From Reyranella sp. (GTDB taxonomy: Bacteria > Pseudomonadota > Alphaproteobacteria > Reyranellales > Reyranellaceae), in NCBI GenBank assembly GCA_029946105.1, contig JAQSDW010000065.1:1-52968 (forward strand): 52,968 nucleotides of DNA, written 5' to 3'. The position numbers were made by a program, and so were the translations under genes. The stretch's first letter is position 1. The number at the start of each line of letters is the position of its first letter. The notes under the pieces are model-generated. The model had not been told where the DNA came from. It did no database searches and saw only the letters and a list, made by a program, of their open reading frames with translations. Positions 859 to 1,634 of this stretch are shown here, in pieces.

Positions 859-863
859 AGGAG
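859..863 (+). promoter_or_regulatory. Shine-Dalgarno AGGAG fixing the start at 870
   Basis: AGGAG lies six bases before the ATG at 870. It matters because a TGA follows after only eleven codons. A site this good in front of an otherwise pointless 11-codon frame supports the view that translation begins here and continues through the TGA. Confidence 0.7.
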
Positions 864-869
864 CATCGC

Positions 870-1634
870 ATGCCGCCCTTCAAGGTGTTCTGGCAGCCCG
901 GTTGAACCAGCTGTCTGAGACTCAAAGAGTTTCTATCGGTCCGTGGGATCGACTTCGTTTCCGTCAACGTTCTTGAAGATCCGGCCGGCCTGGCCGAACT
1001 GCAGAAGCTCGGCGCCCGCTCGGTGCCGGTGCTGTCGCGCGGCGACAAATTCACCTTCGGCCAGAGCACCAAGCAGATCGTCGACTTCCTCGGCATCGAC
1101 GAGAAGTCGGGGCCCGAGCTCTCGCCGACCGAACTCCAGGCCCGCCTCGACAAGTTCATGACCGCGGCGCTCGAGCTGCTGCCGCTGATGCCCTACGACC
1201 GCCTCGACACCCATGTGCCGGGCCGGCCGCGCAGCTATCGCACGCTGGGCTTCCATCTCTTCCGCGTCGTCGACGCCTTCCTCGACGCCAATCAGGGCAT
1301 CACCCTCGTCCAGGCGATGTTCCGCGAGGAGCCCGCGCCCGATGCCGATACCGCGGCCCTGGTGGCCTACGGCACCAAGGTGCGCCAGCGCTTCCGCGAC
1401 TGGTGGGCCGCCTGTGAAAAACTGGGCGGAGATACAGCCGGCACGCGCACGCTCGACACCTACTATGGGCCGCAGAGCCTGCACGAGCTGCTCGAGCGCA
1501 CCACCTGGCATTCCGGCCAGCATGTGCGGCAATACATGATGCTGCTCGAGCGCGAGGGGCAGAGCCACAGCCGGCCGCTGGTCGAGGCCGACTTCGCGCG
1601 CCTGCCCATGCCCCAAAACGTCTGGGACGGCTAA
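870..1634 (+). CDS. Candidate selenoprotein: glutaredoxin-like domain (UxxC) fused to DinB-like domain
   Basis: The frame from ATG 870 to TAA 1632-1634 encodes 254 residues if the TGA at 903-905 is read as selenocysteine. Residues 1-75 look like a glutaredoxin: a beta strand F-K-V-F-W, then P-G-U12-T-S-C15, a helix, and the cis-proline motif S-V-P53. The TGA occupies exactly the first cysteine of the expected CxxC. Residues about 85-240 resemble a DinB/YfiT-like four-helix bundle, with candidate metal ligands His129, His214 and His218 (W-H-S-G-Q-H). DinB-like proteins include thiol-dependent S-transferases, so a thiol or selenol redox role is inferred. No other stop or frameshift interrupts the frame. 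Without readthrough, restart at the GTG at 1023 would lose the whole active site. The alternative is a Cys-to-stop mutation. selA, selB, selC and selD are not in the window. Confidence 0.75.
917..952 (+). promoter_or_regulatory. Candidate SECIS hairpins just after the in-frame TGA
   Basis: Two adjacent 7-bp hairpins follow the TGA. The first pairs 917-923 with 927-933 around an AAA loop and includes one G-U pair. The second pairs 936-942 with 946-952 around a GUG loop, also with one G-U pair. Bacterial SECIS elements lie inside the coding region soon after UGA and usually have a G near the start of the apical loop, roughly 16-37 bases away. The second loop has that G, at 943 (37 bases after the TGA), which is the outer limit. 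The first is better placed but lacks the G. Codons here (TGT, AGA, AAA, TTT, CTA) are rare for this genome, which hints at selection on the RNA. Neither hairpin is proven. Confidence 0.45.

Follow-up and report, generated by a model that had tools for sequence, protein, structure and literature searches.

A probable selenoprotein of Reyranella and related Alphaproteobacteria that joins a selenocysteine glutaredoxin to a DinB domain

The DNA analyzed here (the window) covers positions 1 to 52,968 of contig JAQSDW010000065.1 in a Reyranella genome, assembly GCA_029946105.1. It carries a gene that very probably encodes a selenoprotein, in which an in-frame TGA at 903-905 would be read as selenocysteine (Sec). 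The predicted 254-residue product combines a glutaredoxin domain, whose redox motif would begin with Sec, and a DinB domain. We favor the Sec reading because TGA alternates with Cys codons among homologues, a hairpin after the codon is restricted to the TGA forms, selection acts on the downstream frame, and most of the Sec machinery is present. The sequence-only reading had already taken this TGA for a Sec codon, and these comparisons, together with the co-occurrence of selB, support that assignment. The gene and its signals are:

870..1634, + strand: coding sequence of the proposed glutaredoxin-DinB selenoprotein, from the ORF reading and 63 TGA sequences without a further stop
859..863, + strand: ribosome binding site AGGAG, six bases ahead of the ATG at 870
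903..905, + strand: in-frame TGA, codon 12, first position of U-x-x-C; proposed Sec codon, from the codons of homologues
912..914, + strand: Cys15, fourth position of UxxC, invariant in a 33-sequence alignment (A3)

The frame opens with ATG at 870 and closes with TAA at 1632-1634. Its sole internal stop is the TGA, within the peptide P-G-U-T-S-C. Both the single interruption and the AGGAG ahead of the start had been described from the sequence alone, and reading the frame confirmed them. GGAG occupies the ribosome binding position in all six upstream stretches compared (the window and five relatives). By analogy, Cys15 would be the resolving Cys. Translation with table 11 yields only a 203-aa ORF in this frame (1023-1634, GTG start); conventional translation stops the gene at the TGA, and the gene would therefore be easily overlooked.

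We scanned contigs with peptide patterns that avoid codon 12 and recovered 45 loci, one of which (L052) is a 3′ fragment short of codon 12 and was dropped. TGA is present in all 44 loci that reach the codon, and thus occurs there far beyond chance. The records are titled Reyranella, Enhydrobacter aerosaccus, Rhodospirillales, Alphaproteobacteria and Proteobacteria bacterium, with a few metagenome-assembled genomes titled Asaia or Rhizobium. They include Reyranella soli NBRC 108950 (L031), Reyranella massiliensis 521 (L049) and Enhydrobacter aerosaccus ATCC 27094 (L026). The recurrence of TGA in these named strains makes the chance of a sequencing or assembly error in place of TGC or TGT negligible, even though the window's assembly is in 242 contigs.

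Within Reyranellaceae, the gene was found in 54 of 61 genomes, with exactly one TGA inside each match (its position was not read in this survey). In one genome (G432) the gene is split into two pieces. Another (G433) has an additional stop-free copy (G433:C372:1398-2141) with 39% identity; this genome is 4% contaminated and the copy may be foreign.

The frame past the TGA is under purifying selection, judging from its substitutions. Across 43 pairs with the window, median dN/dS was 0.21 and the maximum 0.33, calculated for the region past codon 17 after the TGA and with one fragment (L053) excluded. No second stop occurs in any of the 63 TGA sequences. The sequence-only reading had proposed conservation of the downstream frame, as opposed to decay, as a check, and conservation is what we found. 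A nonsense mutation, after which the gene would either be decaying as a pseudogene or yield just a DinB protein from the GTG at 1023, would account for the 203-aa ORF and would take a single base (TGC to TGA). It would not be expected to leave the same TGA in 44 of 44 loci and one TGA in each of 54 family carriers, a dN/dS of 0.21 with conservation across genera, and a hairpin that accompanies only the TGA forms (below), and we consider it exceedingly improbable. Codon conservation and selection led us to reject the pseudogene, sequencing-error and split-gene readings alike.

Homologues were also sought in a class-wide draw of 385 genomes. Matches occurred in 55 genomes, 23 of which had weak or partial matches only (E about 6e-6 to 1e-3) and do not enter the counts. 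The remainder gave 33 full-length homologues in 32 genomes, 19 with TGA and 14 with TGC or TGT; one genome (G306) holds both forms, a TGA copy and a Cys copy (L143, L159). Of all 77 homologues spanning the site, 63 have TGA, 10 TGC and 4 TGT, with no other codon detected, so that the alternation of Cys and TGA that the sequence-only reading proposed to look for is present (63 TGA and 14 Cys codons). The 63 TGA sequences are pooled from two collections that possibly share genomes, and comprise 56 distinct rows over the 69 bases from the TGA onward. A phylum-wide draw of 398 genomes yielded the gene in two, namely the window's genome and a congener; at most six candidates were scored per genome, and carriers may have been missed.

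One TGA form (L157), 74% identical to the window protein, lies in a genome of another family (G093, family code f93), and another f93 genome (G295) has the Cys form. Transfer is a possible explanation for the TGA form in f93. The tree requires at least four Sec/Cys changes. By an approximately unbiased (AU) test, a single Sec clade is compatible with the data (p 0.287), and we thus do not claim recurrent switching between Sec and Cys.

Downstream of the TGA we identified a SECIS-like hairpin and, with less certainty, a second one:

936-941 / 947-952, + strand: stem of the SECIS-like hairpin, loop 942-946 (CGTGG), from pairing across TGA forms
917-923 / 927-933, + strand: second, less certain hairpin, from pairing across rows and the minimum-energy fold

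The first is a stem-loop soon after the TGA with a small loop and a conserved G, features on which we class it as SECIS-like. All 63 TGA sequences (56 distinct rows) form the full set of six stem pairs; none of the 14 Cys sequences does, the best of them forming four. CCGTG (941-945) has the same distribution, 63 of 63 versus 0 of 14. Among the 56 TGA rows, the 936-952 hairpin beats every slid version on all five measures, whereas in the Cys set only 38.8% of cells pair at the hairpin positions, no better than shuffled or slid versions. Two of these stem pairs, and also an optional outer pair (935/953), changed on both sides. The change at pair 38/46 occurs in three rows that are close relatives and could reflect a single event, and the window is among the 43 of 56 rows in which the outer pair does not form. 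RNAalifold, run on 58 rows, predicts just the 936-952 hairpin. The loop begins 36 bases past the TGA, towards the long end of the spacings usual in bacteria. Rfam gave no match to any family at the TGA and hairpin site.

Synonymous variation marks the same stretch. Among 44 Reyranella-type sequences, with the fragment L053 again excluded, the 17 codons that follow the TGA have a synonymous diversity of 0.070, versus 0.349 for the 210 later codons (Mann-Whitney p 4e-8), and the lowest later 17-codon window has 0.156. Codons 1, 3 and 7 after the TGA do vary (0.30, 0.49 and 0.30) and the others hardly at all. The freeze ends where the hairpin ends. All 63 TGA forms have CGT at codon 25; none of the 14 Cys forms does, their codons being CAC (7), AAC (4), and TCC, CGC and CAG (one each). 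As codon 25 and CCGTG are fixed in the TGA forms, the protein sequence there seems to be set by the RNA.

The 917-933 hairpin has 87.8% of cells paired, is kept in the Reyranella-type rows and also appears in the fold of lowest energy for the window sequence. None of its pairs has changes on both sides. When it was added to the model, slid versions matched or exceeded the both-sides changes (3 pairs and 11 cells at +2, and 5 pairs at +3, versus 3 pairs and 9 cells). For the single window sequence the minimum energy is unremarkable (z -1.25; 27 of 200 shuffles were as good), and we dropped its long minimum-energy hairpin, as only 936-952 is supported across sequences.

The sequence-only reading had named selA, selB, selC (tRNA-Sec) and selD as the genes to look for in this genome. 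We identified a tRNA-Sec (71.4 bits, anticodon TCA) adjoining a full selB (454 bits), and selD (297.7 bits); the selA part of the expectation returned only a weak partial match (36.6 bits), with no complete selA found in this assembly. A second tRNA match above the Rfam cut-off is a tRNA-Ser according to ARAGORN. The selD match lies within a 741-residue frame (L184:153-2378, G000:C111) that has a pyridine nucleotide-disulphide oxidoreductase domain in front, and an open frame encoding RTX calcium-binding nonapeptide repeats (L001:1876-3090) adjoins the tRNA-Sec. The same genome encodes fdhA, the formate dehydrogenase alpha subunit, an established selenoprotein with the Sec motif UHxP (PMC13188914); its in-frame TGA sits at the Sec position, in U-H-G-P (L182, G000:C203:2835-5885, minus strand).

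SelA scored above the cut-off in 55 of the 61 Reyranellaceae genomes, the window's genome being one of the six misses. In two genomes (G358 and G280) the gene order is fdhA, 2.6-2.7 kb, selA, 0.8 kb, selB. In the window's genome, the fdhA contig (C203) ends 2.8 kb past fdhA and the selB contig (C80) begins about 37-38 bases before selB. As these contig ends fit the order in the other two genomes, we infer that the missing selA probably falls in the assembly gap between them. The one plausible SelA query (L099) matched neither contig end; the longest ORFs of L096, L100 and L102 are not plausible SelA queries.

Across the class-wide draw, the TGA form and the Sec machinery occur together. SelB was detected in 18 of 19 TGA genomes (G306 included) versus 3 of 13 Cys-only genomes (Fisher p 4e-5), and tRNA-Sec in 17 of 19 versus 3 of 13 (Fisher p 2e-4), related genomes being counted separately in both tests. 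The exceptions are G011 (77% complete), a TGA-form genome with neither selB nor tRNA-Sec, and G366, which lacks tRNA-Sec. Among 14 control genomes, the selB search matched two (both above the cut-off) and the tRNA-Sec search three.

In the mechanism we propose, SelB carrying Sec-tRNA-Sec would bind the hairpin after the TGA and the ribosome would insert Sec at residue 12, giving a Sec12-Thr-Ser-Cys15 motif within the glutaredoxin domain. Alternatively, the TGA could be read through without selenium, by insertion of Trp or through a near-cognate tRNA; the hairpin would then promote read-through, which might serve as a regulatory switch. We judge this very unlikely given that the site alternates with Cys codons exclusively, that the TGA form co-occurs with selB and tRNA-Sec, and that TGA is an ordinary stop here, ending the upstream TctC receptor gene at 832-834. 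That same terminal TGA, and the position of the in-frame TGA of fdhA at a Sec site, led us to reject a reassigned TGA. Sec insertion is thus the reading we adopt for the protein below.

Both halves of the predicted protein were recognized by profile and by structure:

870..1100, + strand: glutaredoxin (thioredoxin-fold) domain, residues 1-77, from Pfam and VIA-align
1113..1592, + strand: DinB/YfiT helical domain, about residues 82-241, from Pfam and VIA-align
1254..1256, 1509-1511 and 1521-1523, + strand: His129, with His214 and His218, invariant in A3

The good domain signals mentioned in the sequence-only reading hold up in Pfam, where Glutaredoxin (PF00462) scores 40.5 bits over residues 6-60 (cut-off 22.9) and DinB_2 (PF12867) passes narrowly, with 25.5 bits (cut-off 24.8). 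An AlphaFold2 model built with 35 sequences has a mean pLDDT of 83 and a pTM of 0.79. Using VIA-align, residues 1-77 matched 3zit (Z 12.9), 7c10 (Z 11.9, residues 1-75) and NrdH 1h75 (Z 10.8). Residues 80-238 matched 6iz2 (Z 15.2, rmsd 2.7, 145 aligned), and the DinB part also matched the mycothiol maleylpyruvate isomerase 2nsg (Z 13.7) and the M. tuberculosis mycothiol S-transferase 8f5v (Z 12.4), although mostly helical models may reach a Z of about 14 by arrangement alone. The best Foldseek match is also 6iz2 (E 4.3e-4), and Pfam and Foldseek both put DinB first. A family profile searched against PDB sequences found glutaredoxins and no DinB chains at E 1.

Residues U/C12, C15, P53, H129, H214 and H218 are invariant in the 33 diverse sequences of A3. 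PF00462, the thioredoxin fold, the CxxC/UxxC motif and the invariant P53, which we take to be the cis-Pro position of glutaredoxin, place the first domain among glutaredoxins. The narrow PF12867 match and a four-helix fold place the second among DinB proteins. Such His residues bind metal in DinB proteins, and their conservation makes His129, His214 and His218 the probable metal ligands here.

Bacillithiol and mycothiol S-transferases belong to the DinB-family enzymes, which are reported to be widespread among glutathione producers as well (both from the available part of PMC4360819). On the structure matches, the invariant residues and these S-transferase activities, the function we favor is a Sec glutaredoxin serving a DinB site. 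Tentatively, the protein might be a redox or transferase enzyme that depends on glutathione: a metal-dependent DinB domain would hold a disulfide or electrophile, and the glutaredoxin domain would attack or reduce it, a proposal we rate somewhat below an even chance. Such an enzyme would correspond, in a single chain, to the glutaredoxin-type and DinB-type enzymes that other bacteria use separately with small thiols.

The gene neighborhood provides no support for this function. A + strand ORF of the TctC cluster recurs in 39 Reyranella-type loci. Outside the Reyranella-type group, no neighbor cluster was found in more than 4 of 28 loci; examples of neighbors are gamma-glutamyltranspeptidase, MsrA, a GST C-terminal domain, a chromate transporter and a YmdB-like protein. 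The neighbor ORF lists are rich in spurious high-GC frames, and weak links may be missed. Just downstream of the gene, a 125-residue ORF (1715-2092) has no Pfam match at 1e-5, and members of its cluster are found on the + strand in 39 Reyranella-type loci.

Sec-containing glutaredoxins (PF00462, UxxC) are already known (PMC13188914) and share with the window protein the glutaredoxin domain with Sec at motif position 1; the novelty is the fusion, as the window protein adds a C-terminal DinB domain in a 254-residue chain. UXX-star and YruB-type glutaredoxin-like (seleno)proteins have weak similarity to the glutaredoxin domain, and the NCBIfam models all scored below their curated cut-offs (NF041212, 33.6 vs. 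66; NF041211, 23.6 vs. 100; NF047338, 29.8 vs. 97; NF041114, 16 vs. 72). UXX-star family 1 is UxxT (PMC13188914), whereas the family reported here has an invariant Cys at motif position 4. The DinB thiol S-transferases (YfiT, BstA and mycothiol S-transferase) and mycothiol maleylpyruvate isomerase share the fold of residues 80-241; the matched chains cover the DinB part only, whereas in the window protein it is fused to a Sec glutaredoxin. The three His residues invariant in the family may be a further likeness to DinB S-transferases. Glutathione S-transferases also have a thioredoxin-fold domain followed by a helical domain and gave weaker Foldseek matches, but the helical domain here is DinB-like and whole-chain Foldseek alignments to them are poor (rmsd about 10-16.5).

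The DinB fusion has no entry among the 119 families and subfamilies in Table 1 of a 2026 review, in which the word “DinB” occurs 0 times (PMC13188914). The word is likewise absent from the available parts of PMC12013277, PMC9312934, PMC1088965 and PMC2398784, and we found no title or abstract opening in the open-licence literature that describes a glutaredoxin-DinB selenoprotein. Ocean metagenome surveys list UxxC sequences as “Grx” or “Grx-like,” with 42 Grx-like and 2 Grx in the GOS set (PMC2398784) and 10 Grx in the Sargasso list (PMC1088965), going by the available parts of both papers, and these groups may overlap with the sequences reported here. That the selenoprotein was already counted among them seems unlikely to us, given a review table without a DinB entry and the absence of the word from the review and from the main texts of both surveys, the surveys being compared by their available text. 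Whether the gene represents an unlisted selenoprotein architecture, with a Sec glutaredoxin and a metal-dependent DinB thiol-transferase domain joined in one chain to carry out detoxification or redox chemistry in two steps, we regard as evenly balanced.

The gene also bears on why Sec decoding is kept in this family. Formate dehydrogenase (TIGR01553) was not detected at E 1e-50 in 18 of the 61 Reyranellaceae genomes, with at most 11 candidates scored in each. Of these 18, 16 carry the TGA gene, with selA above the cut-off in 15 and partial in one; two (G066 and G403) are single-contig genomes with the TGA gene and without detected TIGR01553. Five other genomes (G390, G394, G397, G408 and G434) have formate dehydrogenase and lack the glutaredoxin-DinB gene, which is thus not the sole reason for the Sec machinery. 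The gene may help explain why Sec decoding has been kept in genomes without detected formate dehydrogenase. The residues apparently dictated by the hairpin in the TGA forms would offer a natural experiment on how a SECIS element constrains a protein. In combination, the results likely add a new selenoprotein family for Alphaproteobacteria, named isolates included.
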